Translations under genes and position numbers: made by a program
Shown: positions 8,701-26,598 of the stretch, piece by piece
How positions within the stretch are numbered: the stretch's first letter is position 1
Layout: the number at the start of each line of letters is the position of its first letter
NCBI GenBank assembly: GCA_006226595.1
Contig: SBGP01000106.1
Location: forward strand, 1 to 64,000
DNA from: Deltaproteobacteria bacterium
GTDB lineage: Bacteria > Myxococcota_A > UBA796 > GCA-2862545
Length of the DNA stretch: 64,000 nt
Reading direction: 5' to 3'
Notes under the pieces: generated by a model
Database searches by the model: none
The model's input: only the letters and a program-made list of their open reading frames with translations
What the model was told of the DNA's origin: nothing

Positions 8701-8858
8701 CCGAGGACAACGAGGCCGAGCGCGAGGAGGCCCGCAAGGAGGGCTGGCCCGTGCCCCCCGAGGTCGCGCCGCCCCCGATCGGACCCGGCGGCCGCCCGAT
8801 GTTGCCGCGCACCAAGGTGATCAAGCGCAAGGGTGACGACCCGGGGACGCCCGAGTGA
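5754..8858 (+). CDS. AftB-like GT-C membrane glycosyltransferase with charged C-terminal tail
   Basis: This 1034-residue protein has an N-terminal domain of about ten membrane helices (roughly residues 28-490). The first outer loop reads WYIEDAAISFTYARN, with the acidic pair E53-D54, followed by GGERVEGFSDPLW. That pattern is typical of GT-C transferases related to mycobacterial AftB and Arn/PMT enzymes, which use polyprenyl-phosphate sugars on the outer face. A large soluble part follows, ending in a Lys/Glu/Arg-rich predicted coiled coil with repeated EAEQRRKER (about residues 940-1000) and a Pro-rich end. I chose the GTG with a GGAGGAG site. It overlaps the next, paralogous gene by 4 nt. 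Donor and acceptor are unknown. Confidence 0.8.
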   Translation: MSSRLQRISDAIGRVLPPWRRWSSRQRMHALLVFALMLASIGHQLVFVYWYIEDAAISFTYARNFAEGEGFVTYPGGERVEGFSDPLWVYLMILWEYVGVSGFTSSKVMGAVFGALCLPVSYLLAQEALRTHTSNQWWSDEPDHYGLIAPAYLAASAQFAIWNASGLENSLFCLLLAMGMWRTQIETRTNGWPTAALYFFGLSITRPEGILYAALGGFWAMVLSLMKHRSPALTVKWLAFFFAPFSAYQALRYSYFAWPFPNTYYAKLGDKDFLPFAWHARGWKYIRDWAHLLWHGYLLPVYLLGLIGKRPGAKLTVLGAVLVVLALMLPGPDLVKGFWPWRSFQIPSGWNETRVWLLLLLTSLLFVRGFGREGWRVRLLAGGMTFIALFFSLWSGGDWMKGYRWMSLLTVPMAVLFAVGSAQMAPLLGQVLAPVWVPLVTGLRVLARRGKLTRPQIRHGFVAAGVVALLGCVIGPNAYHSDWFARKPETGPFSVQKRVQYVNWVERRLHLLYRPTTFDVDMGANMYWSGNKIGDVAGLVDVPMGHHNYQTAFMKEYVFSELKPDFVHSHGGWASRSGVQNHPEWRERYFEIPGYPTGATGLHIGNWVKKSLFIDDRWPVDDTSGELSFGHGIRITGVDTHLPVAPDEHLYLEIGLKLDVLPEGKRDEDWEVRILAFISNGTRLHTWDLPPGYDWYRPSDMQPGETFHGRFSLKVPGNFEPGSYDLGLVVIGPDGAAPALLSAGEAAIHAGIEGFEPWMAKSEVRFPGAITVLPLTEALDQARAKVDDVVSLSESGDCEGAEAAWVEAQRRTTRRDGFARNHRDTATTALAGCYVARAEATEDQDERTKWLIAAKEHDHHHEGYKHLATRHGELLYQEGHIARAEIDSEEIVSEDWDRPYRLFTDSVLVDPSRSWSRRYAEEARDFRLGIDPISTAQAQKKREEEAEQRRKERAEAAEQRRKEREAAREAGEEGEPGEEGEGTEDNEAEREEARKEGWPVPPEVAPPPIGPGGRPMLPRTKVIKRKGDDPGTPE

Positions 8859-11443
8859 TCGACCGCCTGGACCTGGAGTTTCGCTCGCTCGACTCCCGGG
8901 ACCAGGGCCTGGTCTTCGGCACCCTGCTCGCCGCAGCGCTGTTCTGCATCCACTTCCTGCTGTACTCGACGTGGTTCGTGGAGGACGCGGCGATCAGCTT
9001 CGGCTTCGCGCGACACGTCGCCGATGGCTGGGGCTTCGTCACCTACCCGGGCGGAGAGCGGGTCGAGGGCTTCTCCAACCCGACGTGGACGCTGGCCCTC
9101 GCGGGCTTCTCCCTCATCGGCATCTCCCCGTTCGTCGCGTCGAAGCTGTTTGGCGCCGCCTGCGGTCTCGGCGCGCTCATGCTCTCGGCGGTGTGGGCAC
9201 GTGAGCTCATCGACGAGGAACGGCGCCACTACGCGCTCATCGCGCCGTTCGTGCTCGCGACCACGCCCAGCTTCGTGATGTGGTGCGCCTCGGGTCTCGA
9301 GAACCCGCTGCTGTCGCTGCTCGTCGCCGGTGCCGCCGTGGTCGGTCTCGCCGAGGTGCGCACGCGGACCCTGCCGGTGTCCGGTCTGCTGTGGGCCATG
9401 GTCGCGATGACCCGCCCCGAGGCCCCGCTGTACGCGGCCATCGGCGGCCTGGTCACCGGCGCGGGCGTGCTCCGCTCGCAGGGCGTCGCCGGGGCCGCGC
9501 GCTACACCGCCGGCTGGCTGGCCCTGTTCTTCGTGCCCTTCGGACTGTGGCACACCTGGCGCTACAGCTACTTCGCGTGGGAGTTCCCGAACACCTACTA
9601 CGCGAAGCTCGCCAGCGACGAGAACGACTTCCAGCCGTGGGGCTGGGACGTGAAGGGCTGGCGCTACCTGCGTGGATGGGCACTCGAGACGGGCCAGGGC
9701 TTTCTCGCGCCGCTGTACGTGGTCGGCCAGAGCGGCGTGCGCGACCACCGCGGCGCGGTCGGCGCGCTCATCGCTTCCCTGGCGCTGCTGCTCGTACTCC
9801 CCGGCGTGGAGTGGTTCCAGATCCTGCCGCTCACCCCCGACTCCGAGCCCGAGTGGCTGATCCACGGACGCGTCGTGTTCCTCGCCGGCGTGGTCGCGGT
9901 GGCGCCGTGGCTCGGCCTGGGGCGGCGCAGCGACGATGCTCGCGCGCTCGCGTGGTACCTGCTCGCCGCCGCCCTGTTCTTCGGCCTGTACAGCGGAGGC
10001 GACTGGATGGCGGGCTACCGCTGGCCGAGCCTGATGGTCGTGCCAATGGCCGTGCTCCTCGCCGATGCCGTGGCGGACGTGGGCGAAGTGCTCGACGAGG
10101 TCGGCAACAAGTGGGTGCTACGCCTCGGACTCGCGATGACCGTGGGACTGACTGCGGTCCTCGGCGCGGTGCAGTCCGGACGGCTGATCACCGGCCCCGA
10201 GACCTCGCCCTACGATGTGTTCGTTCGCGTGCGCCACATGCAGCATGTCGCCGACGTGATCGGCATCGAGCGGCCGAGCGCCGGCGAGATCGACATGGGC
10301 GCGCACGTGTGGTGGTCCGACTTCGAGCTCGTCGACCTCGCGGGCCTCCTCGACGTACCGGTCGGTCACCACGCCTGGCAGCCGCCCTTCGTCACCGAGT
10401 ACGTGCTCCGCGAGCGCCGCCCCGACTTCATGCACATCCACAGCTACTGGGGCCGCAAGACGAAGATCGCCAGCCACGCGGGCTTCTTCAACCACTGGGT
10501 CGAGGTACCCGCCTACCCCACCGGTCCCTACAACCAGCATCCGGGCAACCACGTGCGCCGCGACCTGCTGTTCCGCGAGCAGTGGGACGGCCCGTCCCGC
10601 GACCTGTGGCTCGGTAGCGCCGTCGAGCTCGTCGCTCTCGAGGTGCTCTCCGAGTCAACCGCACCGGGAGGCGAGGTCGTCGTCCGCCTCGCGACGCGCG
10701 AACCCCGTCCGCACGCGGACAGCCGGCTGACGCTGTTCCTGTTCGCCGACGGGGAGGTGCTCACCAGCGCCGACGCGCCCATCCTCTGGGACTGGGTCGA
10801 ACCCACGGACTACGTCGCCAGCGAGGTCGCGGTGACTCGCCTGCGCATTCCGATCCCGGCGGACGCAGCGCCCGGCACCTACGGCCTGGGCCTCGCCGCG
10901 TGGACCGACGGACGACGCGCCGTACCGCTCACCGCGGGCCTCCCGGCCGCCCAGGACCCCGTGTTCAGCCGCCACGAGCTGCACCTCGACGAAGTGGTGA
11001 TCGCTCCGGAGGACGAGGTCCGCGCGCGGGTCGAGGCCCGTCTTGCCGCCATCGGCGCGCACGCGGAGGCCGACCGCTGCGTCGAGGCCGACGCCGAGGC
11101 CATGGGCGTGCGCGACATGCGCCGGGGACTCGACGAGAGCTGGGAGTCCGCCGTGCGTGCGCACGACGCCAGCCGGGCCCGTTGCTGGGCGCGCCTCGCC
11201 GAGGCGAAGCTCGATGTCGACGCCATGCACCACGCGCTGCGCCTCGACCCCGGCGAGTCCGAGGTGCTCGCCGCCGGGCATCGCATGGCCGAGACCTTCC
11301 AGGCAAAGGCCAGCGAAGCGCGCAGCGCCGGCGACCTCGATGGAGCCTACGCGGCCCTGCGCGACGCGTTGATCTGCGACCCGACCCGCAGCTGGACCCG
11401 CCGCCACGCCGAGACCCTGCGCGACCAGCGCCTGGGGCTCTAG
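8855..11443 (+). CDS. AftB-like GT-C membrane glycosyltransferase, second paralogue
   Basis: This 862-residue protein is a tandem paralogue of the preceding one. It has the same first-loop signature (FVEDAAISFGFARH, E43-D44), the same VTYPGGERVEGFSNPTW continuation, about ten membrane helices and a soluble C-terminal part. It lacks the Lys/Glu-rich coiled-coil tail, which accounts for most of the size difference. The GTG start overlaps the upstream stop (GTGA). Both enzymes probably add sugars to a cell-surface polymer or lipid using lipid-linked donors; substrate specificity cannot be read from sequence. The soluble parts also align (WARRYAEEARDFRLGI-like ends), so the whole gene was duplicated. 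Confidence 0.8.
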   Translation: MIDRLDLEFRSLDSRDQGLVFGTLLAAALFCIHFLLYSTWFVEDAAISFGFARHVADGWGFVTYPGGERVEGFSNPTWTLALAGFSLIGISPFVASKLFGAACGLGALMLSAVWARELIDEERRHYALIAPFVLATTPSFVMWCASGLENPLLSLLVAGAAVVGLAEVRTRTLPVSGLLWAMVAMTRPEAPLYAAIGGLVTGAGVLRSQGVAGAARYTAGWLALFFVPFGLWHTWRYSYFAWEFPNTYYAKLASDENDFQPWGWDVKGWRYLRGWALETGQGFLAPLYVVGQSGVRDHRGAVGALIASLALLLVLPGVEWFQILPLTPDSEPEWLIHGRVVFLAGVVAVAPWLGLGRRSDDARALAWYLLAAALFFGLYSGGDWMAGYRWPSLMVVPMAVLLADAVADVGEVLDEVGNKWVLRLGLAMTVGLTAVLGAVQSGRLITGPETSPYDVFVRVRHMQHVADVIGIERPSAGEIDMGAHVWWSDFELVDLAGLLDVPVGHHAWQPPFVTEYVLRERRPDFMHIHSYWGRKTKIASHAGFFNHWVEVPAYPTGPYNQHPGNHVRRDLLFREQWDGPSRDLWLGSAVELVALEVLSESTAPGGEVVVRLATREPRPHADSRLTLFLFADGEVLTSADAPILWDWVEPTDYVASEVAVTRLRIPIPADAAPGTYGLGLAAWTDGRRAVPLTAGLPAAQDPVFSRHELHLDEVVIAPEDEVRARVEARLAAIGAHAEADRCVEADAEAMGVRDMRRGLDESWESAVRAHDASRARCWARLAEAKLDVDAMHHALRLDPGESEVLAAGHRMAETFQAKASEARSAGDLDGAYAALRDALICDPTRSWTRRHAETLRDQRLGL

Positions 11444-12770: not shown

Positions 12771-13877
12771 TCAGCTGCGCAGCGGCACGGGCGGGGGCGC
12801 ACCGACCTGCCCGCGCCAGCGCAGCCAGTGATCGGCGAGCACGAGGCACATCATCGCCTCGACGATGGGCACGGCCCGCGGCAGCACGCACGGGTCGTGG
12901 CGTCCGCGGGGCCGCACGGTCGTGGCTTCGCCGCGGTCGTTCACGGTGTCCTGCTCGTGGAAGATGGTCGCGACCGGCTTGAAGGCCACGGCGAGCTCGA
13001 TGGGCATGCCGTTGCTGATGCCGCCCTGGATGCCGCCACTGCGGTTGGTGGTGGTGGCGATGCCGCCGTTCTCCGGCACGAACAGGTCGTTGTGGGCCGA
13101 GCCCTTGAGGGCGGTGCCGGCAAAGCCCGAGCCCACCTCGAAGCCCTTGGCCGCCGGCAGCGAGATCATCGCCTTCGCCAGGTCGGCGTCGAGCTTGTCG
13201 AACACGGGGTCGCCGAGACCGGCCGGCACGCCTCGGGCCACGGCCCGCACGACACCACCCACGGTGTCGCCTTCGGCGCGGATCTGGCGGATGCGCGCCT
13301 CCATGAGCGCGGCCGCCTCGGAATCCGGGCAGCGCACGAGGTTGCTGTCCACGTCGGCGACGGTCACCGCGTCGGGATCGACCGCGGCGGTGAGCTCCTG
13401 CACGGTGTCGACCCAGGCGACGACCTCGACGTTGCCGAGGGACTCGAGCACCTGGCGGGCCACGGCCCCCGCGGCGACGCGCGCGGCGGTCTCACGGGCG
13501 GAAGAGCGCCCTCCGCCGGCCCACGCGCGGATGCCGTAGCGAGCGTCGTAGGTGAAGTCCGCGTGGCTCGGGCGGTAGGTGTCCTTGAAGTTGGCGTAGG
13601 CGCTGCTGTCGGCATCCTTGTTGCGGATCGCCAGCGCCAGCGAGGTCCCGAGGGTGCGGCCCTCGAAGAGTCCGGAGAGCACCTCGACCTGGTCGAGCTC
13701 CTTGCGCCCGGTCGTGAGCTTGCTCTGCCCGGGCCGACGCCGGTCGCACTCCGCCTGGATCCGCGCGAGATCGAGGGTCAGCCCTGGCGGACAACCGTCG
13801 ATGACGACGCCGAGCGCGCCGCCATGGGACTCGCCGAAGGTGTGGATGCGGAAGAGCTGGCCGAAGGTGCTGCCCAA
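12771..13877 (-). CDS. aroC: Chorismate synthase
   Basis: Converts 5-enolpyruvylshikimate-3-phosphate to chorismate, the last common step of aromatic biosynthesis, using reduced FMN. The 368 residues carry the family signatures: [19 protein letters not shown] near the N-terminus, [15 protein letters not shown] around residue 48, a central [10 protein letters not shown], and [16 protein letters not shown] with [16 protein letters not shown] in the C-terminal half. The length is normal for the bacterial enzyme. It stands alone here, without other aro genes, and diverges from the large synthase gene at 14115. Confidence 0.97.
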
Positions 13878-14114: not shown

Positions 14115-17100
14115 ATGCAGACGGTCGTCAACCCGTACACCGACCTTCCTGGCGCGATGGCCCGACTCGACCAGCGCTCGACGCGCTATCGCTTCGACCT
14201 CGACGGCCTCCCCTGGGAGCTGCCGCCGATGGACGGCCTGCACCTGCCGCCGCGCCTGCTCGCGAGCATGGGCATCGATCCCGCGGTGTTCGACGGCCAC
14301 CCCGAGGCCGCCGAGATGTTCCAGTGGGCGGCTGGACTCGAGATCTGCCGCTCGTTCTCGGCCCTCGAGCAGTACCTCGTCGACTTCGTCGACGCCGAGA
14401 AGCCCGTACTCGGGCCCACGCGCTCCGCTCAGATGCTCTACGACGAGGAGATCAAGCACGTCGCCCTGTTCAAGCGCTACGCCGACGTGCTCCTCGAGGC
14501 CCACCCCGAGTGGGCCGAGCCCTTCGCCGAGGCCTTCGCGCCGACCGTCCCCGCGCTGCTGCATCCCTACACGCGGGATGCGTACCCGGACCCGGCGATC
14601 CAGCACTACTTCTTCTGGCTCAAGACCCTGTTCTTCGAGGAGTACACCCTCTACCTGCACGAGATGCTCAAGCAGGAGTCGGACGTGGTGTGCCCGCTGT
14701 GGCTCGAGGCGCACCGTTGCCACCGCCTCGAAGAGACCCAGCACGTCGTCACCGACCTCGCCCACGTCGAGGCCCTCGCCCTCGACTCGCTGACCCAGCG
14801 CGCCCTCGCGAGCACGTTCTGGGCACACCTCGAGGAGACCTTCGAGCTGTTCCTCGGCGTCGCCGCCTCCACCCGCATGGTTCGGGCCGCGTTCCCCGAG
14901 CTCGCCGACAAGCTGCCCGACCGCCGCACCCGCGAGCTGCCCGTGTTCGGTGAGCTGTTCACCCATCGTCTGTTCCGCGGGACTCGCCGCTGCGCGCCTC
15001 CCCCGCATAGCGCCCAGGTGCGCCCGCAAGCGCCCAAGCAGCTCGCGCAGATCGAGGGAAAGCCGCTCTCCGTGCCGGAGGGCACCCTGCACGACGCCCT
15101 CGACCGCGCCATCGCCGCCGGCCGCAGCGTGACCTGGGTCCGCGAGGGCGAGACCGACGAGCACGTGCCGCTCTCCGAGCTCGAGATCCACGCGCTCAAC
15201 GTGCTCGCCGCGCTGCACGCCGAAGGCCTGACCGCCGGCGACCACCTGGTGCTGCGCCTCGGCCGACCCGAGCACGCCATCGTCATCCTGTGGGCCGCGT
15301 TGCTCGGCGGCATCGTGCCCGTGCTCGTCGCCCCACCCACCGGGCGCGACGACGACATCGAGCGACGGTTCCTCGCGGTGCTCGAGCGCCTGGGCTCGCC
15401 CAAGGTCGTGTCCCGCGACGGGCGCTACGGGCTCAAGGCCGAGGACCTGCTCGCCCACGAAGCCACGCACCTGCCCGATCGCGCGCCGGTGTCCCCCGAA
15501 GATGTCGCGATGATCCAGTTCTCGTCGGGCTCGACGGGCAACCCCAAGGGCGTGCAGCTCACCCATCGCAACCTGCTCGCGAACACGGCGGCGATGACCG
15601 AGCACCTCGGCGCACTGCGCGAGGACGTGTTCCTGTCGTGGCTGCCGCTGCATCACGACATGGGGCTCATCGGCTACCACTTCCTGCCGATCGCCTGCGA
15701 GGCCGAGCAGGTGCTCATGCACCCGCGTCACTTCCTCAAGCGGCCGGGAGACTGGCTCGAGGCCATCCACCGCCACCGCGCGTCGGTCAGCGCGAGCCCC
15801 ACCTTCGGGCTCGAGACCACCACCGAGCGCGCCACCATCGGCAACATCGACCTGTCCTCCCTCCGCACGCTGCTCCTCGGCGCCGAGCCGATCAGCGAGC
15901 CGGCCGTCGATCGCTTCCGCCGTCGCTTCGCCGCCTCTGGACTGCCCGCGAACACCCCGACCCCGGGCTACGGACTCGCCGAGTCCACCCTGTGCGTCAC
16001 CGGGCGCCGGCACGACGACCCGGATCGCACCCTGCGCGTGGACCGCCAGCGCCTCGGCGTGCGCCAGCAGGTGCGCGAGGACGTCGGAGGTCTCGCGGTG
16101 ATCAGCTGCGGAACGGCACTTCCGGGTGCCCGCGTGCGCATCGTCGACGACGCGGACGGCGTGCTGCCCGTCGGCGTGGTCGGGCACATCCAGGTTGCCG
16201 GCCCCAGCGTGACGCCCGGCTTCTACGGCCCCGACCCGCGACCCGAGGACAACTTCTGCGGCGAGTGGCTGCGCACCGGCGACCTCGGGTTCATCGACGG
16301 CGACGAGCTGTTCGTCACGGGGCGCGCCAAGGACGTGCTGTTCCTGCACGGCACCAAGGTCGTCGCCCACGACATCGAAGAGGCCCTGCACGGCGTGGAG
16401 GGCCTGCACCCGCGCCGCATCGCCGCCTTCGGCTCCTACGACCCCAAGCTCGGTCGCGATCGCCTGTGCATCGCCGTCACCCTGCGGAGCCGCGAGCGCA
16501 GCGAGTCCGAGATCGTCGCCGAGCTGAGCGCGGTCGTCGCCAATCGCTTCGGCTGGAAGCCCGACGTCGTCATCCCCCTGCCGCCGAGCGAGATCCCGCG
16601 CACGACCAGCGGCAAGCTCCAGCGAAACCTGCTCCGCGCCCGCTTCGAGCAGGGCGAGCTCCAGGGCTTCTCGGAGTCCCGCGACGACGGCGACGAGGCC
16701 CGTCTGCGCCAGGTGCGCGTCGCGTGGGCCACCGCCCTCGGCAAGAAGCCCGAGGCCATCCCCGTCGACGAGGACTTCCGCGTGCTCGGCGGAAACTCGA
16801 TCCAGGCGGCCATGGTCCACGCGCTGCTCGAGGACGAGCTCGGTCAGCCAGTGCCGCACGAGGTGCTGCTCACCGCCGCCACCGTGCGCGAGATGGCTCA
16901 GGCCCTGCGCGCCCTCGAGATCGAGCCCGCCCCCTTCCCCGAGGTCGAGGCCGCCCCCGAGTTCCGCGAGGACGACGTCGCCGTCGTCGGCATCGGCCTG
17001 CGCCTGCCGGGCATCGACAGCACGGACGACCTGTGGGACCTGCTCGTGCGCGGCGAGGACCGCTTCGTGCCCGTGCCGACCGAGCGCTGGGACCACGCCG

Positions 17101-20100
17101 CTCAACGCGCCGCCGATCCGGATCTGTGCCCGACCGGCGCCTTCGTCGACGACGTGTTCGGCTTCGAGCCCGAGGCCTTCGGCATGGAGGCTCCCGCCGC
17201 CCAGGCCATGGAGCCCCGCCAGCGCCTGTTCCTCGAGGCCGCCGAGCGCGCACTCCGCGACGCGGGGGTGCAGGACAAGCGCGTCGGCACCTTCGTGAGC
17301 AACGGCGAGAACCCGGTGGGCGCGCGCTCCTTCCTCGATGCGCTGCGGGCGGGCGATCGTTCGGTCGCCGGACGCCTCGAGAACGCGACGAACAACATGG
17401 TCGCCGCCCGCGTGCACCGCGTATTCGGGTTCACCGGACCGGCGGTGGTCGTCCAGGCCGCCTGCGCGAGCTCGCTGGTCGCCATCCACCAGGCTCGCCG
17501 CGCGATCCAGCTCGGCGAGTGCGACGTGGCGCTCGCCGGCGGCGTCGAGCTCGCCCACTCCCCGACGATCTACGCGCTGTTCGGCCCCAACCGCGTGCTC
17601 TCGCGACAGGGACGTTGCCTGCCGTACACCGAGCATGCCGATGGCTTCGTGCCCGGCGAGGGCGCGGCGGCGGTCGTGCTCAAGTCGCTGGCCAAGGCTC
17701 GCGCCGACGGCGATCGTGTACTCGCGGTGATCCGCGGCAGCGCGGTGACCAACGACGGCGAGGCCTTCTCGGGTCTGGCGCCGAACCCGCGCGGACAGAT
17801 GGAGGCCGCTAGCCAGGCCCTCGCCGAAAGCGGTCTGTACGCGGACGACATCGGCATGATCGAGTCCCACGGCACCGCGACGACCATCGGCGATGCGGTG
17901 GAGCTCAAGGCGCTGCGCACGGTCTACGCCGGCTCGAACGCCGCGATCACCTCGGTGAAGTCGAACCTCGGCCACCTGCTCGCCGCCGCCGGCGTCACCG
18001 CCTTCGCGAAGGCCGTGGTCGCCCTGCAGCACGACGCCGCCCCGCCGATTGCGCACTTCGACCGTCCCGATCCGCGCCACGGCGACCTGTCCTCGGGACC
18101 GCACCCGATCGGCGCGGTGACCCCGCTCGGCGGCAAGTCAGTGGCCGTGCACTCGCTGGGCATCGGCGGGACCAACTGCCACATCGTGCTCTCGCCGCCG
18201 CCCGCCGAAGGCTACGCGCCGCGCCCCGGACTGCGCGTCGTCGCCGCCGGCGCCCGCACCCCCGCGGGCCTGGAGGCCGAGATCCGCACGCTCTGGGCCG
18301 TCGTCGACGAGTGCCACGCCGATCGCAGCCTCGTGCGCCGCGCCACCCCGTGCCGCGTGCGTCGCGCCGCCGTGCTTCGCCCGTCTGAGCGCCCCTCCGA
18401 GGTGCTCGCCTCGCTCGTCGGCAAGACGCTGCCCGCCACCGGCAAGGTCGCGGTGGTATTCCCCGGTCCTGGCTCGCAGACGCCGAATCCGGGCGAAGGC
18501 CTGGCCACCGACGCCGTGTACGCCGAGGCACTCGCCGAAGCGACCGCGCCGATCGAGGCGGCCATGGGCCAGTCGATGCCGCAGCTCGTCGCCGAGGCCA
18601 GCGAGCGGATCGACGCGGCTCAGCCCGCCGTGTTCGCGGTGTCGTGGGCGACCTGGCGCTGGCTGCAGGACCTGGGACTGCAGCCCGACGCGGTCATTGG
18701 TCACTCCGCCGGCGAGTACGCGGCGCTCGCCGCCGCCGGCGCGTGGTCGATGGAGGACGCGCTCGCCGCGCTCATCGCCCGCGGAGACGCCATGGCCGCG
18801 GCCTCGCCCGGCCGCATGCTCGCCACGCTGTGCGACGCCACCACCGCGCGCCAGCTGGCGCCGAACCTGAGCATCGCCGCGACCAACGCCCCCGAACAGG
18901 TCGTGCTCTCCGGCGCCGATCCCGAGGTGACGGCGGCCGAAGCGGTCTTCGAGGCCGCCGGCATCCAGACCCGACCGCTGCCGATCCCGTGTGCCGCGCA
19001 CTCTCCGGCGATGGACAGTGCTCAGCCGCGCCTGTCGCAAGCGCTGTCCGGCCAGGTCTTCGCCCGCCCCGAGGTGCCCGTGTACAGCACGGTCTTCGGC
19101 AAGCGCCTCGACCAGGTGAGCAGCGAGTACCTGGTGCACCAGCTGCGTGCGCCCGTGGCCTTCGCGGAGGCCGTCGGTTCGGCCCTCGACGCCGGCGTGC
19201 GCACCTTCGTCGAAGTCGGCGCCTCCGCCGTGCTCGCCCCCGCCATCCAGGCCGTCGCCGCCGCACGAGGGCTCGCGGTGAACACCGTGTCCGTGCACCG
19301 CAGCGGGCTCGGCGCCGAGGCACCGCTCGCCGCCGCCGCCACCCTCTTCGAGCTGGGTCTCCCGATCCGCCTGGCGGGCCTCACCCGCGGCAACGACACG
19401 CTGCCCGCGCCCCAGTGGCGCCGTCAGCCACTGCCCATCGACCTCGTCGAGGCGCAGGCGAACAAGGTCGGTGGCCGCCGCGAGAACCAGGGCCCCATCG
19501 GCGACACCGAGCGCGCGGTGTTCGCACACCACCAGGCCCGCGGCCAGGCCATCGCCCCCGCGGCGTGGATGCTCGAGAAGCTGTTCTCGGTCACCGGACC
19601 CGGAAGCCTCGAGGGACTCGCGATCACCGCCCCCCTGCCGGCCGCGCAGACCACGTGGTCCGTGGGCCGCTCCGGCCAGGACGTGCGCCTCGAGTCGGAC
19701 GGCCCGAGCGGCGCGATCGCCCACCTCTCCGGCCGCTTCGTCGAGGGCGCGGACCAAGCCCGCAGCGTGGACCTCCTCGACGGTGGCGCAGTCATCGCGC
19801 CGGAGACGCTGTACGCGGCCCTCGCGGCGGGCGGACTCGACTACGGCGCCACCTTGAAGAGCGTCACCGAGCTCGCGATCGACGGCGACCACGTGCGGGC
19901 GCGTCTGCAGCCGACGGCGCCCCTGCCCGTCCGATGGATCGACCCGTCGCTGCTCGACGGCGCGTTCCAGGCGCTCGCGAGCTTCCTCCTCGACGGCGAC
20001 GACCATCGCCCGATGCTTGGTTTCGCCGCCGGCCGCGTCGTCCTGCGCCACCCGGTGGTCGGCCCGATGACCGCCCGCATCCACCGCCGCCACGCCGACT

Positions 20101-21689
20101 CCGAGGGCCTGCGCGCGGACCTCGAGCTCGTCGACGCCCTCGGCCGCAGCGCCCTGGTCATCGAGGACTTCGCCGCCCGTCGCCTCGCCGAGGAGCGACC
20201 GCTGCTCGCGGCACTCGCGTGGAAGCCATCGCAGGCCGAGATCCACCGCACCGAAGGCCCGATCGTCGTGCTCGGCGGCCCCGAGGAGGGCTTCGCCGTC
20301 GTCTCCGATGCGCTCGGTGCGGGCGCGCTGGCCATGGGACCGCTGCCCGCGGCCTCGCCGAGTGCCGGCCAGGCCCTGGCCCAGGCGAAGACCGCTGTCT
20401 TGCTCGACCCGTCGATCGCCGACCTGCACCGCCTCGCCTCCAGCCTCGCCAAGGTGAGCCACCTGCGGGTGCGCACCGACGACCCGGCGGTCCGCGCCAT
20501 GGCCCGCTCGCTCGGCGCCGAGCTCAAGCTCGACACCGCGGTGCTCGAGGGTCCCGCCGGCGAGGCCGAGGCCCTGTGGCGCGCCCGCGGCTGGACGCGC
20601 ATCGTCGACGGTGCGCTGCTCGTGCCGCAGGCCATCGAGGTTCCCGCGGGAGACGCCGCGATCGAGGGGCCGGTGTGGATCGTCGGCGCTACCGGAGGCA
20701 TCGGCGGTGCGCTGGCCCTGGCCCTGGCCGATCGCGGCCTGTCGCTGGGTCTGACCGGCCGACGCGACGCGCTGCCCGAGGCCCTCGCGAGCGCACTCGA
20801 CGCCCGCGGCGCCACCTGGCACTACGCCGCCGCCGACCTCGCGGAGGCGGACTCGGTGAAGTCCGCGCACGCCGCGATCACCGCGGCTCTCGGCGAGGTG
20901 CGCACGCTCGTGCACAGCGCTGGGCTGCTCCGCGACGGCCTGCTCGCGACCCAGCCGTGGCACGACGTCGAGGCGGTCATTGCCCCGAAGGCCCGCGGCG
21001 CCACCCACCTCGCGGCCGCCTGTGGCAGCCTGCACCGCGTGATCCGCGTCTCTTCGCTGTCCTCTGTGCTCCCGAGCCCTGGCCAGGCCGCCTACAGCGC
21101 CGCCAACGCCAGCCTCGACGGGTCCGCCTTCGACGCCGAGCACGCCCACAGCCTGTGGTTCGGCCCATGGGCCGAGGTCGGCATGGTCGCCGACGAGGCG
21201 CATCGCCAGGCGCTCACCGCCGCGGGCCTGCCGCCGATGAGCACCTCCGCGGCGGTGCGCTCGGCACTCGCGGCCCTCGGCACCGACGGGGGCGTGACCA
21301 TCGCGCTTGTCCCCGCGGGCCTCGGCGCACTGACCACGGCCCTTGGCGGTCGCCCCGCGCCGACCCCCAAGCCCGAGCCCGCCTCCACGCCCAGCCCGGC
21401 GCCGGAGCCGGTGCAGTCGCCGGCCCCGGTCGCCGAGGTCGCAGCCCCTGCGGATCCAGCGAAGCTCGACCTGCTCGACGTGGTGCGCCAGGCCCTCGGA
21501 CGCCACCTGCGCGCGGGGGTGTTCGACCCCGACGCGACCTTCGCCGAGCTCGGTGTCGACTCCATCGGCGGCGTGGAGGCCTCGCGCGCGCTCGAGTCGC
21601 GCCTCGGCCTCGTGCTGCACCCGACCCTGCTCTTCGAGTACCCCACCCCGGCGGCCCTCGCCGAGGCCCTCGCCGAACGGATGTCCTGA
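14115..21689 (+). CDS. Multidomain synthase: AurF-like diiron oxygenase-FAAL-ACP-KS-AT-DH-KR-ACP
   Basis: This protein has 2524 residues. Residues 1-300 fit an AurF-like diiron oxygenase: E112xxH115, E176, then H203xxxE207xxH210, with E76 or E85 as first ligand. Residues 318-850 are a fatty acyl-AMP ligase (FSSGSTGNPKG near 470), which would load a fatty acid onto ACP1 (GGNS, Ser895). KS follows (about 950-1370; C1117, H1252, H1287), then AT (about 1440-1740; GHSAGE, Ser1531), DH (H1806 in HxxxGxxxxP, D1948), KR (Gly-rich loop at 2190, Y2327, LRD motif) and ACP2 (GVDS, Ser2483). The AT has CAAH where HAFH or YASH would show malonyl or methylmalonyl choice. There is no ER and no thioesterase, so release needs a partner protein. 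Inferred role: activate, oxidise and once extend a fatty acid. Confidence 0.88.
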   Translation: MQTVVNPYTDLPGAMARLDQRSTRYRFDLDGLPWELPPMDGLHLPPRLLASMGIDPAVFDGHPEAAEMFQWAAGLEICRSFSALEQYLVDFVDAEKPVLGPTRSAQMLYDEEIKHVALFKRYADVLLEAHPEWAEPFAEAFAPTVPALLHPYTRDAYPDPAIQHYFFWLKTLFFEEYTLYLHEMLKQESDVVCPLWLEAHRCHRLEETQHVVTDLAHVEALALDSLTQRALASTFWAHLEETFELFLGVAASTRMVRAAFPELADKLPDRRTRELPVFGELFTHRLFRGTRRCAPPPHSAQVRPQAPKQLAQIEGKPLSVPEGTLHDALDRAIAAGRSVTWVREGETDEHVPLSELEIHALNVLAALHAEGLTAGDHLVLRLGRPEHAIVILWAALLGGIVPVLVAPPTGRDDDIERRFLAVLERLGSPKVVSRDGRYGLKAEDLLAHEATHLPDRAPVSPEDVAMIQFSSGSTGNPKGVQLTHRNLLANTAAMTEHLGALREDVFLSWLPLHHDMGLIGYHFLPIACEAEQVLMHPRHFLKRPGDWLEAIHRHRASVSASPTFGLETTTERATIGNIDLSSLRTLLLGAEPISEPAVDRFRRRFAASGLPANTPTPGYGLAESTLCVTGRRHDDPDRTLRVDRQRLGVRQQVREDVGGLAVISCGTALPGARVRIVDDADGVLPVGVVGHIQVAGPSVTPGFYGPDPRPEDNFCGEWLRTGDLGFIDGDELFVTGRAKDVLFLHGTKVVAHDIEEALHGVEGLHPRRIAAFGSYDPKLGRDRLCIAVTLRSRERSESEIVAELSAVVANRFGWKPDVVIPLPPSEIPRTTSGKLQRNLLRARFEQGELQGFSESRDDGDEARLRQVRVAWATALGKKPEAIPVDEDFRVLGGNSIQAAMVHALLEDELGQPVPHEVLLTAATVREMAQALRALEIEPAPFPEVEAAPEFREDDVAVVGIGLRLPGIDSTDDLWDLLVRGEDRFVPVPTERWDHAAQRAADPDLCPTGAFVDDVFGFEPEAFGMEAPAAQAMEPRQRLFLEAAERALRDAGVQDKRVGTFVSNGENPVGARSFLDALRAGDRSVAGRLENATNNMVAARVHRVFGFTGPAVVVQAACASSLVAIHQARRAIQLGECDVALAGGVELAHSPTIYALFGPNRVLSRQGRCLPYTEHADGFVPGEGAAAVVLKSLAKARADGDRVLAVIRGSAVTNDGEAFSGLAPNPRGQMEAASQALAESGLYADDIGMIESHGTATTIGDAVELKALRTVYAGSNAAITSVKSNLGHLLAAAGVTAFAKAVVALQHDAAPPIAHFDRPDPRHGDLSSGPHPIGAVTPLGGKSVAVHSLGIGGTNCHIVLSPPPAEGYAPRPGLRVVAAGARTPAGLEAEIRTLWAVVDECHADRSLVRRATPCRVRRAAVLRPSERPSEVLASLVGKTLPATGKVAVVFPGPGSQTPNPGEGLATDAVYAEALAEATAPIEAAMGQSMPQLVAEASERIDAAQPAVFAVSWATWRWLQDLGLQPDAVIGHSAGEYAALAAAGAWSMEDALAALIARGDAMAAASPGRMLATLCDATTARQLAPNLSIAATNAPEQVVLSGADPEVTAAEAVFEAAGIQTRPLPIPCAAHSPAMDSAQPRLSQALSGQVFARPEVPVYSTVFGKRLDQVSSEYLVHQLRAPVAFAEAVGSALDAGVRTFVEVGASAVLAPAIQAVAAARGLAVNTVSVHRSGLGAEAPLAAAATLFELGLPIRLAGLTRGNDTLPAPQWRRQPLPIDLVEAQANKVGGRRENQGPIGDTERAVFAHHQARGQAIAPAAWMLEKLFSVTGPGSLEGLAITAPLPAAQTTWSVGRSGQDVRLESDGPSGAIAHLSGRFVEGADQARSVDLLDGGAVIAPETLYAALAAGGLDYGATLKSVTELAIDGDHVRARLQPTAPLPVRWIDPSLLDGAFQALASFLLDGDDHRPMLGFAAGRVVLRHPVVGPMTARIHRRHADSEGLRADLELVDALGRSALVIEDFAARRLAEERPLLAALAWKPSQAEIHRTEGPIVVLGGPEEGFAVVSDALGAGALAMGPLPAASPSAGQALAQAKTAVLLDPSIADLHRLASSLAKVSHLRVRTDDPAVRAMARSLGAELKLDTAVLEGPAGEAEALWRARGWTRIVDGALLVPQAIEVPAGDAAIEGPVWIVGATGGIGGALALALADRGLSLGLTGRRDALPEALASALDARGATWHYAAADLAEADSVKSAHAAITAALGEVRTLVHSAGLLRDGLLATQPWHDVEAVIAPKARGATHLAAACGSLHRVIRVSSLSSVLPSPGQAAYSAANASLDGSAFDAEHAHSLWFGPWAEVGMVADEAHRQALTAAGLPPMSTSAAVRSALAALGTDGGVTIALVPAGLGALTTALGGRPAPTPKPEPASTPSPAPEPVQSPAPVAEVAAPADPAKLDLLDVVRQALGRHLRAGVFDPDATFAELGVDSIGGVEASRALESRLGLVLHPTLLFEYPTPAALAEALAERMS

Positions 21690-22849
21690 TGTGGCCTGAG
21701 CTCGACGCCCGCACCGAGGCATGGCGGGCGCGCTGCGCTGAGTTCGCCGAGCGCGTGATCCTCCCCAACCGGCGGCAGTACGACCGGGAGAACCGCTTTC
21801 CCGAGGCGGTGCACGAGGTTGCCCGCGCCGAGGGCATGCTCAACCTCGACTTCCCCGAGGAGCTGGGTGGCGGGGGGCTCAGCAGCGTCGAGGCCGTGGT
21901 CGGTGTCGAGACCCTCGCCTCCGTGTGCGCGCCGATTGCGTTCACGATGGGCTTCAACCGCGGGGCCCTGCACCCGATCCTCGTCGGCGCCAACGACGAC
22001 CAGAAGCAGGAGTTCATCGGCAAGCTCATCGCCGAGGGACGCTACGCCTCGCTATGCCTCACCGAGCCGCACAGCTCGGGCAGCAACCTCATGGGCCTGA
22101 ACACCACCGCGACCCGCACCGATCGCGGCTGGATGATCACCGGCGAGAAGTGCATGGTCGGCAACGGCGGCGTGTCCACGCAGTTCTCGGTGCTCGCGAA
22201 GACCGTGGTCGACGGCAAGAACCAGGGCCTGTCCTTCTTCGCGGTGCCGAAGAGCGACGCGGTGATCGTCAGCGAGAACACCGACAAGCTCGGCTTCCGC
22301 GCGGTCGAGACCCCGACCATCCGCTTCGTCGGCGCCGAGGTCGAGCCCCACCACCGCATCGGCGCCACCGGCTCGGGCGCAGCACTGATGATCGACACGC
22401 TGCACGCGATCCGCGTCGGCGGCTCGGCGACCATCCTCGGCATCGTGGTCGGCGCGCTGAACGACGCGCTGCCGTGGGTCAGCGAGCGCGAGGTGTACGG
22501 CGGCAAGCTCGTCACCAAGTCCCATGTTCAGCTCGTGCTCGGCGGGCTGTACGCCGAGCTCGAGATGGTGCGGCGCATGGTCTACGAGTCCGCTCGCCTG
22601 CGCGACGAGGGCAAGCCCTTCGGCCACGCCTCGTCCATCGCCAAGCTCCACGCCGCCGAGCTCGCCAAGAAGGCCACTACCGAGGTCTCCCAGCTGTTCG
22701 GCTGGCGCGGCATCGACGGCGACTACCCGATCCAGAAGCGCTACCGCGACGCTCGCCAGACGAGCATCTTCGAGGGCACGTCCGAGGTGCAGCGCATGAG
22801 CATCTTCCACACCCTGATGAGCCGCCACTCCCGCGGGGAGGCCCTGTGA
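21689..22849 (+). CDS. Acyl-CoA dehydrogenase family protein
   Basis: A 386-residue flavoprotein of the acyl-CoA dehydrogenase family. The FAD/substrate signature LCLTEPHSSGSN lies near residue 115. The C-terminal RQTSIFEGTSEVQRM holds the Glu that acts as catalytic base in medium-chain enzymes. It would introduce an alpha,beta double bond into an acyl thioester. The ATG overlaps the synthase stop by one base, so it very probably acts on the synthase product or starter, possibly as acyl-ACP rather than acyl-CoA (inference). Related enzymes in natural-product clusters act on carrier-bound substrates. It may also be a gatekeeper for chain desaturation, since the synthase lacks an ER. Confidence 0.9.
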   Translation: MWPELDARTEAWRARCAEFAERVILPNRRQYDRENRFPEAVHEVARAEGMLNLDFPEELGGGGLSSVEAVVGVETLASVCAPIAFTMGFNRGALHPILVGANDDQKQEFIGKLIAEGRYASLCLTEPHSSGSNLMGLNTTATRTDRGWMITGEKCMVGNGGVSTQFSVLAKTVVDGKNQGLSFFAVPKSDAVIVSENTDKLGFRAVETPTIRFVGAEVEPHHRIGATGSGAALMIDTLHAIRVGGSATILGIVVGALNDALPWVSEREVYGGKLVTKSHVQLVLGGLYAELEMVRRMVYESARLRDEGKPFGHASSIAKLHAAELAKKATTEVSQLFGWRGIDGDYPIQKRYRDARQTSIFEGTSEVQRMSIFHTLMSRHSRGEAL

Positions 22850-23631
22850 GCTTCACCACGCGCTCCCTGTCCACGCGACGGCTGGTCATCTACGACCTGC
22901 TCAAGCGCACACGCGAGTACCACTTCCCCACCCTCGGCATCTTCGAGTGGGACATCACCGACACCCAGGCGCACATCGAGGCCCTGCGCGACCGCGGCGT
23001 GATGGTGAACCTCGCCTCGCTGATGGTGAAGGCCACCGCGACGGTGATGCGCGACAACGAGCGGCTGCGCACGCGCATGTTCCACGGCGTGCGTGGACCG
23101 TTCGAGGCCACCTTCGACGAGGTGAGCTGCAACCTGGTCATCCTCCGCGACACGGACAAGGGACCGCTGCTGTTCCCGGCGGTGCTGCGCCACGTCGACG
23201 AGCTCGACATCGTCGCGATCGCCGCGAAGATCCGCAGCCTGAAGACCGACCCCCTCGACCAGCTCGACGAAGCGCAGCAGATGCGCAAGCTGAAGAACGT
23301 GCCGCGGGTGCTGACCCGGCTGCACGACTTCAAGGTCCGCAGCGATCCGAAGTACTTCATCGAGCGCTTCGGCACCTACGGCATGTCGACCACGACCCAC
23401 GAGGAGTCGGGGCTCGTCGGCGGCGTCGCCCTCGGACCGGGCACCACGTTCTACCCGAGCCGCATCGGGCCGCGGCCGCACGTGGTCGACGGCGAGCTCG
23501 CCGTCCGCACGATGGTGCTCTTCGGCGTGTGCGTGGACCACCAGATCTCCGACGGCATGGAGCAGATCGCGGTGGGCAAGCAGCTCAAGCGGCTGATCGA
23601 GGAACCCGAGCACCTGCTGGGCCACCTGTGA
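22846..23631 (+). CDS. Stand-alone CAT-fold acyltransferase (2-oxoacid dehydrogenase E2 catalytic-domain family)
   Basis: At 261 residues it corresponds to the catalytic domain of 2-oxoacid dehydrogenase acyltransferases (PF00198) only. The lipoyl and E1/E3-binding domains are absent. The active-site pattern appears as DHQISDGMEQ (HxxxDG), near residue 235. Members of this fold transfer acyl groups from thioesters. The GTG start overlaps the dehydrogenase stop by 4 nt. In this operon the likely role is moving an acyl chain from the carrier or CoA to an acceptor, which would supply the missing release step; this is inference. No E1 or E3 gene is nearby, which argues against a pyruvate-dehydrogenase role. 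Confidence 0.82.
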   Translation: MSFTTRSLSTRRLVIYDLLKRTREYHFPTLGIFEWDITDTQAHIEALRDRGVMVNLASLMVKATATVMRDNERLRTRMFHGVRGPFEATFDEVSCNLVILRDTDKGPLLFPAVLRHVDELDIVAIAAKIRSLKTDPLDQLDEAQQMRKLKNVPRVLTRLHDFKVRSDPKYFIERFGTYGMSTTTHEESGLVGGVALGPGTTFYPSRIGPRPHVVDGELAVRTMVLFGVCVDHQISDGMEQIAVGKQLKRLIEEPEHLLGHL

Positions 23632-25205
23632 GGCCCGCGGCGAATGCCGCCGCGCGTCGTGCGATCGCGGTGGCCATGCGCGGGCTCGGTCGGTGGGTGA
23701 CCGGGCGCACCGAGAAGGTGATCGACGGCTGGCATGCCGATCAACAGCGCCTTCGCGCGGCCTACGGCGTCGGCGAGGACACGCCCATCCGCGGCTATGA
23801 CGAGGCCCTGCGCGCGCACATGGAGGCGATGCCCGGCGCCCGCCTCGCCGAGACCTCGGGCAGCACCAAGCGACCCAAGGTCATCGCCTATACGCCGGCC
23901 CGCCTGAAGTCGGTCCAGAAGTCCTTCGCCGGTGTCACCCTGCGCACCGTGCACGCCCTCGGCTCGCAGCGGCCCGTGGTGTTCACCCTCGCGAGCCTCG
24001 CCGAGGACGGCAGCTTCACCGCGCTGATGACCCAGGTCGAGCCGTCGCTGCTCGACGTGCTCGTCACCCCGCACGCGATCTTGCCGCTGCCCGCGCTCCG
24101 ACCGCTGATCGCCGAGTACGGCGTCCACGCCCTGCGCATGTGGGCGATGGTGCTCTCGAACCCGGGGTGGCTGTACAGCACCAACCCGTCGACCCAGGTC
24201 GCGTTCTTCCACGCCCTGCAGTCCGACTGGATGCGACACACCGCCCTCGTCCGCGCCTTTCGTGCGGATCCAGCGCGCTACGGCCCCGAAGTGCACCGCC
24301 TGGCCATGCGCATCGCGTCGAGCGGGTGGGAACAGCGCGCCGACACGGTGATCGCGGCGGAGCAGGCCCTGCCTCCGGAGGCATGGCTGTCGCTCGAGGT
24401 GAGCTGCGCCTGGGACGGCGGCAACAACGGCCCCTACGTGCGCCAGCTCGAGGCCTGGCTGCCGAGCGCGACCTTCGTGCCGATGTTCTCGATGTCCACC
24501 GAGACCCTCGAGACCCTCACCGTGTACGACGGCCAGCAGGCGCGCTTCCTGCCGATCGCGCCCGGCGTGCTCTACGAGTTCCTGCCCGCGGAGGCCGAGA
24601 TCGACGATCCGGCGATGCTCGTCGGCGCCGATCGGCTCGAGGCCGGACGCGAGTACGTGCTCGTCGCCAGCGATGGCTACGGACTGCGGCGGTACATGAC
24701 CGAGGACGTGTTCCTGTGCCGCGGCCACTACCGCGGGCTTCCCGACCTGCACTTCCTGCGGCGCCGCGGGCTCACGTGGTCGTTCACCGGCGAGAAGCTG
24801 ACCGGCGCGCAGATCGAGGCCGCATGGGAAGCGGTGGGCGAGGCTCACCCGGCCTTGTCCCGGGTCCAGGCGACGGTGATCCCCACGGAACCGCCTGGAG
24901 AGCGCCTTCCCGGCTACCGCGTGGTGCTCGCGAACACGGGCGCCAAGCCCGAGGACTGCCCCGACGACGCGACGGTCGCCGCGTGCTGGGACGAAGCACT
25001 GGGCGCGATCAACGAGGAATACCTGCACAAGCGCGAGTCCGACCGCCTGCGTGCGCCGGTCGCCGAGTGGGTCGACTACGATGCGCTCGCCCAGGCGCTT
25101 CGCGGCGAGCGTGGCGAGGCCGAGGGACGCGGCTGGGACTCGCAGTTCAAGCTGCTGCCGATGATCTGCCGCCGCTACGAGGAGCTGGCGTGGACCACGG
25201 GCTGA
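23628..25205 (+). CDS. GH3-family acyl-adenylating enzyme (amide synthetase-like)
   Basis: The 525-residue protein matches the GH3 auxin-responsive promoter family of the ANL superfamily. The phosphate-binding loop is ETSGSTKRPKVI (residues 75-86), the mid-protein signature is DGYGLRRYMTEDV, and the hinge region reads WSFTGEKLTGAQIE. Plant GH3 enzymes adenylate a carboxylic acid and join it to an amino acid. Bacterial members occur in natural-product clusters, often uncharacterised. The GTG start overlaps the acyltransferase stop by 4 nt. It may condense the fatty product with an amine or amino acid, or activate a second acid. The N-terminal 20 residues are basic. Confidence 0.87.
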   Translation: MRPAANAAARRAIAVAMRGLGRWVTGRTEKVIDGWHADQQRLRAAYGVGEDTPIRGYDEALRAHMEAMPGARLAETSGSTKRPKVIAYTPARLKSVQKSFAGVTLRTVHALGSQRPVVFTLASLAEDGSFTALMTQVEPSLLDVLVTPHAILPLPALRPLIAEYGVHALRMWAMVLSNPGWLYSTNPSTQVAFFHALQSDWMRHTALVRAFRADPARYGPEVHRLAMRIASSGWEQRADTVIAAEQALPPEAWLSLEVSCAWDGGNNGPYVRQLEAWLPSATFVPMFSMSTETLETLTVYDGQQARFLPIAPGVLYEFLPAEAEIDDPAMLVGADRLEAGREYVLVASDGYGLRRYMTEDVFLCRGHYRGLPDLHFLRRRGLTWSFTGEKLTGAQIEAAWEAVGEAHPALSRVQATVIPTEPPGERLPGYRVVLANTGAKPEDCPDDATVAACWDEALGAINEEYLHKRESDRLRAPVAEWVDYDALAQALRGERGEAEGRGWDSQFKLLPMICRRYEELAWTTG

Positions 25206-25849
25206 AGCTGGCCGCGGTGGGCGGCAGCGAGCTGGTCCTCGCCGCGTTGATCCCGTGGCCGTGGTCGCTCGTGATCGCCTGGCCGGGCAGCGTGACCCTC
25301 GCGATGGGCCTGGCGACATGGGCGCGCACGCCCGGCATCCTCGGCAAGCGCGACGACGGCAGCTTTCCCCTGTGGAGCCTGGCCGTGTTCCTGCCGTGGC
25401 ACCTCTTGTACCGCGCCCTCGGCACCGGCAAGGTGCTCGCGCGGCGGCCGCCCACCGAGGTGCACGCCGGGTGGTGGGTCGGCGGCTGGCCCGAGCCCGG
25501 CGAGATCGATCCGTGGCCGGCCATCGTCGACGTGACTGCCGAGCTGCCGCGGATCGGCGACGGTCCCTACCACCTCGTGCGCACCATGGATCGCGGCGAC
25601 GCCACGCCCGAGGTCATCGAGCGCGCGGCGCAGTGGGCGGTGGAACGCCACGACCAGGGTCCCGTGCTCGTGCACTGCACGCAGGGCCGCGGCCGCAGCG
25701 TGATGGTGTTGTGCGCCGCGCTCGTGAAGGCGGGCCTGCACGCGACCTGGCGCGAGGCCTACGCGCACCTCGAGGCGAAGCGGCCGTTCGTGCGCATGCA
25801 GACCATCCAGAAGGATGCCCTCGACGCGTGGGAGGCCACGTGCGGCTGA
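25190..25849 (+). CDS. Membrane-anchored Cys-based phosphatase (dual-specificity/tyrosine type)
   Basis: The 219-residue protein begins with two or three hydrophobic segments (residues 5-45 and 65-82), so it is a membrane protein with a cytoplasmic catalytic domain. The signature VHCTQGRGRS gives the CX5R loop with Cys163. The general-acid Asp is probably in the GDGPYHLVRTMDRGD loop. Related small DSP-like enzymes remove phosphate from lipids such as phosphatidylglycerol-phosphate (PTPMT1 class) or from proteins. In this operon a phospholipid or lipid-phosphate substrate is plausible (inference). The GTG has a GAGGAG site and overlaps the GH3 gene by 16 nt. Confidence 0.8.
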   Translation: MDHGLKLAAVGGSELVLAALIPWPWSLVIAWPGSVTLAMGLATWARTPGILGKRDDGSFPLWSLAVFLPWHLLYRALGTGKVLARRPPTEVHAGWWVGGWPEPGEIDPWPAIVDVTAELPRIGDGPYHLVRTMDRGDATPEVIERAAQWAVERHDQGPVLVHCTQGRGRSVMVLCAALVKAGLHATWREAYAHLEAKRPFVRMQTIQKDALDAWEATCG

Positions 25850-26598
25850 CCCGACTCGGCGAGGGTCGGCCGGCGGTGCTCATCCCCGGCAACGAGCTTC
25901 CCGCGGCGTTCTACGCGAGCTTCGGCAAGCAGCTCGAGGCCCGCGGCATCGGCCTGCACGCCCTGACCCTACCGGGCTACGAGGGCACCCCGCCGCTCGC
26001 CGAGCCGAGCTGGGCAGGCATGGTCGAGGCCGCCACTCCCGTCGTGCGCGACACCCTCGGCGACGATGGCGTGCTCATCGGCCACAGCCTCGGCGGCCTG
26101 CTCGGTCTGGTGCTCGCCGCCGAGATCTCCCCGAAGCGGCTCGCGCTCATGGAGCCCGCGATCATCCCCTGGGGATTCCTCGCGTCGATCTCGGCGTGGA
26201 TCTACCAGCGCAGCGCCGTCGACGACGACCACTCCGAGGTCAAGCTGCAGGGACCGGGCTTCTTGCGGGTCGCGAACGCCGAGGCCTATCCGCAGGCGAT
26301 GATCGAGGCGGTGCGCCACAGCCGCATGTCCACCGACCTCGGCACCGCGCGCGGCCTGGTCCAGAGCTCGCCGGCGCTGTATCCGCTGCCCTACGCGGCG
26401 GTGCGCTGCCCGACGCTGCTCGTGCGCGGCGAGGCCAGCGGCCCCTACATCGCCGCGGGGATCTGGCGCCTGAACCGCCTGTTGCCCGATGCGACGCGCG
26501 TCGACATCCCCGACGCCGGGCACTGGCTGATGAACGAGGCGGACGCGCCGATCGCCGAGGCGATTGCCGCGTGGGCTAGCCCATCTGCCACTGCTTGA
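25840..26598 (+). CDS. Alpha/beta hydrolase
   Basis: A 252-residue alpha/beta-hydrolase-fold protein with the nucleophile elbow GHSLGG (Ser83), an oxyanion region at LIPGNE near the N-terminus and the catalytic His in DAGHWL near the C-terminus. The acidic triad member is probably the Glu in VRGEAS. It has no signal peptide, so it acts in the cytoplasm. It is the last gene of the synthase operon, and its GTG overlaps the phosphatase gene by 10 nt. It could be the missing thioesterase that releases or proofreads the product. Its 3' end overlaps the convergent DUF2585 gene by 23 bp. Confidence 0.85.
   Translation: MRLTRLGEGRPAVLIPGNELPAAFYASFGKQLEARGIGLHALTLPGYEGTPPLAEPSWAGMVEAATPVVRDTLGDDGVLIGHSLGGLLGLVLAAEISPKRLALMEPAIIPWGFLASISAWIYQRSAVDDDHSEVKLQGPGFLRVANAEAYPQAMIEAVRHSRMSTDLGTARGLVQSSPALYPLPYAAVRCPTLLVRGEASGPYIAAGIWRLNRLLPDATRVDIPDAGHWLMNEADAPIAEAIAAWASPSATA

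Follow-up and report, generated by a model that had tools for sequence, protein, structure and literature searches.

A predicted AurF-fold diiron oxygenase domain within FAAL-loaded assembly-line proteins of the Myxococcota

The diiron enzymes AurF and CmlI take aryl amines as substrates. FAAL-loaded acyl-ACP is oxidized by sets of the JamA/JamB/JamC type, which consist of a FAAL (fatty acyl-AMP ligase), a desaturase, and an ACP. PuwE has a built-in flavin monooxygenase domain (PMC4219810). The distant AurF relative NocO performs an oxidative chlorination of a dodecanoyl-ACP thioester; 241 CylC homologues conserve the motif pair QExxH/HxxDExxH, and a 2 His/4 carboxylate site is found in most nonheme diiron hydroxylases (PMC12101540). 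In a survey of dimetal halogenases, the genes were separate and lay beside those for FAAL and ACP (PMC8406957).

In the literature searched, with most subscription journals outside its scope, we found no description of an AurF-fold domain built into a megasynthase, and a previous sequence-only reading of this DNA had likewise known of no such N-terminal fusion. The words oxygenase, halogenase, diiron, and dimetal are absent from the text of a 2025 FAAL review (PMC11837247). According to an eLife study, stand-alone bacterial FAALs sometimes have dehydrogenases and oxygenases interspersed among them, of kinds that it does not name (PMC8460268); given this general remark, such a fusion may have been sighted before in a supplement.

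The fusion lies in a 64,000-nucleotide stretch (the window) of a genome assembled in 117 contigs. The open reading frame at 14115-21689 (+ strand) starts with ATG and encodes 2,524 amino acids with no internal stop. Its third-position GC is 0.91-0.95 all along, with no step where the N-terminal domain of about 300 residues (Ox) joins the FAAL. The remainder has the order FAAL-ACP-KS-AT-DH-KR-ACP, as the sequence-only reading had proposed; Pfam, NCBIfam, and PDB matches and the catalytic motifs bear this out.

14115..14999, + strand: Ox, predicted AurF-fold diiron oxygenase domain, residues 1-295 (AlphaFold2 model; AurF 3chh and CmlI 5hyh best solved matches; relatives in Myxococcota)
15072..16664, + strand: FAAL (fatty acyl-AMP ligase-like adenylation), residues ~320-850 (PF00501, 2.4e-51; NCBIfam FAAL models; PDB)
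16710..16928, + strand: ACP1, loading carrier, GGNS motif (PF00550 in two stretches; motif)
16971..18305, + strand: KS, Cys/His/His present (PF00109, 2.2e-67; motifs)
18456..19304, + strand: AT, GHSAGE (PF00698, 2.2e-43; motif)
19512..20354, + strand: DH, HxxxGxxxxP and DxxxQ motifs (PF14765, 2.5e-15; motifs)
20673..21173, + strand: KR (PF08659, 1.6e-28)
21471..21671, + strand: ACP2, GVDS (PF00550)

The adenylation domain matches NCBIfam FAAL models with scores below their curated cut-offs. Its best match in the PDB is the McyG A domain, which loads arylpropanoids in the microcystin pathway, followed by the FAAL-type chains 3pbk, 3kxw, and 6ulx (E 1e-56 to 1e-60). Judged by these matches, the domain is closest to the fatty acyl-AMP ligases and is assigned to them.

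Five genes with overlapping ends follow the PKS gene on the + strand of the window.

21689..22849, + strand: acyl-CoA dehydrogenase-like, start overlapping the PKS stop (PF00441, 5.8e-31; 68% identity and same place in G015; 49% in G334)
22846..23631, + strand: 2-oxoacid-dehydrogenase E2-type acyltransferase, catalytic domain only, DHQISDG (PF00198, 8.4e-14; 54% in G015, 32% in G334)
23628..25205, + strand: GH3-family adenylating ligase (PF23571, 1.2e-10; PF03321, 2.7e-06; 58% in G015)
25190..25849, + strand: dual-specificity-phosphatase-like (PF00782, 7.9e-08, slightly below its cut-off; 51% in G015)
25828..26598, + strand: alpha/beta hydrolase, possible release thioesterase (PF12697, 1.4e-16; 55% in G015, 35% in G334)

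Genome G015, from the same genus, keeps all five (51-68% identity) and has one inserted gene, encoding 264 amino acids, methyltransferase-like by eye and with no family match. G334 keeps the acyl-CoA dehydrogenase-like gene, the E2-type gene, and the hydrolase. By sequence comparison this is a conserved, uncharacterized biosynthetic operon. No electron donor was identified in it, nor any aminotransferase or aminoaryl-acid gene. The E2-type protein has neither lipoyl nor subunit-binding domains and is an unusual acyltransferase in a PKS setting. The upstream chorismate synthase gene (12771-13877, - strand) was rejected as a cluster member, being divergent and absent beside the G015 operon in the stretch read. 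Elsewhere in the window (5754-11443), two long adjoining open reading frames of 1,034 and 862 amino acids show a strong coding GC pattern; neither has a Pfam match at E 0.1.

Searches of Pfam, NCBIfam, and PDB sequences with the Ox domain by itself returned nothing useful; a match to the fructokinase 3c8u was a chance stretch. An AlphaFold2 model built from ten sequences (pLDDT 92, pTM 0.91) is a ferritin-like four-helix bundle. Helix 63-94 bears E85, helix 103-129 bears E112 and H115, helix 160-187 bears E175 and E176, and helix 194-220 bears H203, E207, and H210; in the model the candidate ligands are thus spread over four helices as expected of a ferritin-like diiron bundle. With VIA-align, this model matched AurF 3chh at Z 17.5 (265 residues at 3.6 A) and CmlI 5hyh at Z 17.5 (268 residues at 3.9 A), while the next family on structural re-alignment reached Z 15.3. 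A model from three sequences (pLDDT 77) also had CmlI (Z 16.7) and AurF (Z 16.4) as its best solved matches. Ribonucleotide reductase R2 lay about 2 Z units under AurF and CmlI, whose matches span almost the whole domain. Ox is therefore predicted to have the AurF fold of the AurF/CmlI superfamily.

Foldseek alone gave no match at E under 0.001 with the Ox models, so we put weight on the structural re-alignment, the ligands, and the matches of sister sequences. PF11583 is matched weakly by eight of ten family members (E up to 10; best 1.4e-6), but the window's own domain reaches no Pfam model, genome G000 has no PF11583 match, and hhalign of Ox against small PF11583 subsets gave a probability of at most 18%, so that these alignments were used for column matching only. 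The kinship of the window member with AurF therefore rests on its fold, its ligands, and the weak sister-sequence matches, and on these grounds the original suggestion of an AurF-like domain is supported.

Candidate metal ligands were compared in an alignment of 24 proteins: eight fused Ox domains, eight stand-alone relatives, and eight PF11583 proteins.

14367..14369, + strand: E85, predicted iron ligand, helix 63-94 (invariant in 24/24; AlphaFold2 helix)
14445..14459, + strand: E111-E112-x-K-H115, with E112 and H115 predicted ligands (invariant in 24/24; motif roles from PMC12101540)
14637..14642, + strand: E175-E176, with E175 the likely ligand at the place of AurF E196 (E175 invariant, E176 Glu or Asp; AurF alignment)
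14721..14744, + strand: H203-R-L-E206-E207-T-Q-H210, with H203, E207, and H210 predicted ligands (these three invariant; E206 Glu or Asp)

E85, E111, E112, H115, E175, H203, E207, and H210 are the same in all 24 proteins, whereas E206 may be Glu or Asp, as may E176, with Asp found there in one of the fused members and in several relatives from PF11583. E111 takes the position of AurF D135, which is Gln in CylC, and E206 that of D226; the Ox family thus keeps a carboxylate at the D135 place, where halogenases have Gln. The predicted ligand set, E85, E112, H115, E175, H203, E207, and H210, corresponds to the 3 His/4 Glu of AurF. Seven such residues on four helices, invariant in 16 family members and eight PF11583 proteins, go far beyond chance. 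The 2 His/4 carboxylate site of R2-like ligand-binding oxidases and ribonucleotide reductase R2 does not describe Ox, in which H203, the extra His of HxxxExxH, is invariant.

The sequence-only reading had listed E112, H115, E176, H203, E207, and H210, all found at the positions it gave. Five of these stand as predicted ligands; E85 had been missed, and E175 is a more likely third-helix ligand than E176, because E175 is invariant, E176 is sometimes Asp, and the AurF segment holding E196 aligns with the first Glu of the FEE motif (E175). That reading had also equated a 27-residue gap between E176 and H203 with the gap from E196 to H223 in AurF. With E175 as the ligand, the agreement is probably coincidental; the E175-to-H203 spacing is 28 in the window protein and 27 in G184, which has one residue deleted.

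The first relatives from whole-genome searches were in G015 (60% identity) and G184. An alignment-based search added G223, G309, G298, G334, and G267, all Myxococcota, and stand-alone relatives of about 300 amino acids were found in Myxococcota genomes G324, G265, G407, G519, G556, G477, G470, and G459. Scanning genome contigs with the single Ox sequence gave no relative, and with the alignment only G015 and G184. Plasmids and viral contigs held none; a match on a Nostocales plasmid (E 0.6) showed no sign of kinship. A PF11583-matching domain (L039, G058:C110:7221-8021) lies in a 1,515-amino-acid open frame, which may be a further fusion or may be open because it is GC-rich. A decayed copy, an Ox fragment in a 131-amino-acid frame with TAG inside (L025, G234:C45:15806-16054), comes from a different family within the same order.

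The G015 protein (2,913 amino acids) has the domain order of the window protein, with 50% identity over 2,585 residues, and carries an extra C-terminal domain that is enoyl-reductase-like by eye. This second species, with its similar operon, confirms that the fusion is real. G334 encodes Ox-ACP-KS-AT-DH-KR-ACP, lacking the FAAL; G309 and G298 encode FAAL-ACP-Ox-KS(-AT), truncated in each case where the contig stops; G184 and G223 encode FAAL-Ox-ACP-thioester-reductase, with neither KS nor elongation module; and the Ox-FAAL of G267 runs off its contig. The fused architectures are thus four: Ox-FAAL-ACP-PKS, Ox-ACP-PKS, FAAL-ACP-Ox-KS, and FAAL-Ox-ACP-reductase. A carrier protein is present in every complete fused protein and a FAAL in nearly all complete architectures, and Ox always adjoins the FAAL or the loading ACP. 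The fused domains form one clade (support 100/100, rooting unproven), so that, within the reach of this tree, the tie to acyl loading had a single origin and the domain order was reshuffled later.

The gene neighborhoods of the relatives differ. At L026:1249-7720, L027, L084, L085, and L088, stand-alone relatives lie in a conserved cassette of a protein of about 720 amino acids with an iron-containing redox domain (PF14518, heme-oxygenase-like fold), an asparagine-synthase-like amidotransferase, the AurF-like protein, and a PLD-like protein. The AurF-like gene start overlaps the amidotransferase stop, and the cassette holds two putative diiron enzymes of different folds. The PLD partner also occurs in L086 and L087. 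The FAAL-Ox-ACP-reductase gene of G223 (L020:3316-11477) is flanked by genes for a sulfotransferase, a membrane fatty acid desaturase, and a tryptophan-halogenase-like flavoprotein, possibly a pathway to a sulfated or halogenated lipid. In G184 (L005:2952-4100), too, a gene that is sulfotransferase-like by eye lies directly upstream.

We think it fairly likely that residues ~1-295 are an AurF-fold, seven-ligand diiron oxygenase that works in cis within the FAAL-PKS protein, oxidizing a C-H bond of the ACP1-tethered acyl chain before extension. The FAAL would adenylate a carboxylic acid (a fatty acid being the likeliest) and load it onto ACP1. The diiron domain would then activate O2 and oxidize an unactivated C-H of the tethered chain, the outcome being hydroxylation, or desaturation or epoxidation. 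KS-AT-DH-KR-ACP2 would add and process a malonyl-type unit, and the acyl-CoA dehydrogenase-like, acyltransferase-like, GH3, and hydrolase proteins would complete and release the product. The iron content, activity, substrate, order of steps, and product are inferred; what is seen in Ox-FAAL-PKS is an intact fusion, a predicted fold, invariant ligands, a conserved operon, and a constant partnership with FAAL and/or ACP. That partnership, taken from sequence comparisons, supports well a role for Ox at the loading step. Because the G184 and G223 proteins have no KS, their Ox would have no substrate other than the FAAL-loaded acyl-ACP or a product of it, and they would be expected to release an oxidized aldehyde or alcohol. 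Since the shared partners are a carrier protein and nearly always a FAAL, and these two proteins lack elongation, oxidation of FAAL-loaded acyl-ACP is the best reading. The action of NocO on dodecanoyl-ACP thioester provides a precedent (PMC12101540).

Because AurF and CmlI use aryl amines and most diiron hydroxylases have 2 His/4 carboxylate, the 3 His/4 Glu site is not by itself a pointer to C-H chemistry. Ox could be an N-oxygenase like AurF and CmlI, with an amino-bearing acid (for example aminoaryl or amino-fatty) loaded and its nitrogen converted to hydroxylamine, nitroso, or nitro. N-oxygenases have been described as largely the only enzymes with a 3 His/4 carboxylate site (PMC12101540), the nearest solved structures are those of AurF and CmlI, and the McyG match makes an aryl substrate conceivable; on account of the site and that match N-oxygenation keeps some weight. 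We nevertheless hold it to be rather unlikely, since genes for an aminotransferase or an aminoaryl acid are absent from the operon, the adenylation domain otherwise has FAALs as its top matches, and CylC-type relatives do C-H chemistry with the same fold and 3 His. Chlorination of the FAAL-loaded acyl-ACP by a CylC/NocO-like halogenase would suit the context: genes for FAAL, ACP, and type I PKS neighbor those of CylC-type enzymes (PMC8406957), whose substrate is acyl-ACP (PMC12101540), and Ox has FAAL and ACP in its own polypeptide. It is highly unlikely in view of the motifs, as the CylC signature, compared by its published form QExxH/HxxDExxH, is absent: each of the 16 family members carries EExxH and HxxEExxH instead. 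With halogenation disfavored and no obvious amine for N-oxygenation, C-H oxidation is the best remaining of the three chemistries.

The place of a domain in the chain does not set the order of steps, and Ox might oxidize a later intermediate, such as an extended acyl group on ACP2, instead of the loaded starter. The FAAL-Ox-ACP-reductase proteins without an elongation module, and the position of Ox beside FAAL or loading ACP in all architectures seen, make this quite improbable. A catalytically dead structural or docking domain has only a slim chance of being correct, as the seven ligands and E111 stay invariant among sequences that share as little as about 20-35% identity. A faulty assembly or a frameshift that joined two genes, conceivable with 117 contigs, has a negligible chance given the single unbroken frame and uniform GC3 (0.91-0.95), and it was rejected on finding the same fusion at 50% identity in the separate assembly of a second species (G015).

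If oxidation of the loaded acyl chain is correct, Ox is a new kind of tailoring domain for FAAL-loaded assembly lines. We give about even chances to its being the first described AurF-fold diiron tailoring domain of a megasynthase, a Myxococcota clade that is neither N-oxygenase nor CylC, acts in cis on C-H bonds of the acyl-ACP loaded by FAAL and oxidizes them, and was shuffled between PKS lines and lines that end in a reductase. With loading enzyme, carrier, and oxygenase all on a single chain of about 940 residues, it would offer a self-contained system in which to ask what directs an AurF-type diiron site toward N-oxygenation, halogenation, or C-H oxidation; the separate, poorly soluble CylC-type enzymes have made that question hard to test. 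Ox-FAAL-PKS is also a marker for a family of gene clusters in the myxobacteria.

Among known systems, AurF of Streptomyces thioluteus and CmlI, the diiron arylamine N-oxygenases of PF11583, resemble Ox in fold, four-helix bundle, 3 His/4 Glu site, and D/E-ExxH and HxxD/E-ExxH motifs. They are free-standing, however, with no FAAL, ACP, or PKS attached, are 10-16% identical to Ox, and AurF has Asp (D135, D226) where the Ox family has Glu (E111, E206). The dimetal halogenases CylC and NocO share an AurF-related diiron fold and a setting of FAAL-loaded acyl-ACP next to a type I PKS, but they are encoded by separate genes and have Gln before the ExxH glutamate; their third-helix Glu, at the place of a predicted ligand in Ox, is believed not to coordinate iron, which would make room for chloride. 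The FAAL-PKS olefin synthases (FAAL-ACP-KS-AT-KR-ACP-ST-TE) have, like the window protein, FAAL and ACP fused before a single PKS module; they have no diiron domain and end in sulfotransferase-thioesterase, in place of the DH and the acyl-CoA dehydrogenase-like, E2-like, GH3, and hydrolase partners found here. The JamA/JamB/JamC-type sets differ in being separate proteins with a membrane desaturase of another fold. An oxidative tailoring domain (oxygenase or halogenase) inside an assembly-line protein, as here, occurs in puwainaphycin PuwE and the CurA-type megasynthases, where it is flavin-dependent in PuwE and 2-oxoglutarate/iron-dependent in CurA, whereas Ox is predicted to be a diiron enzyme.
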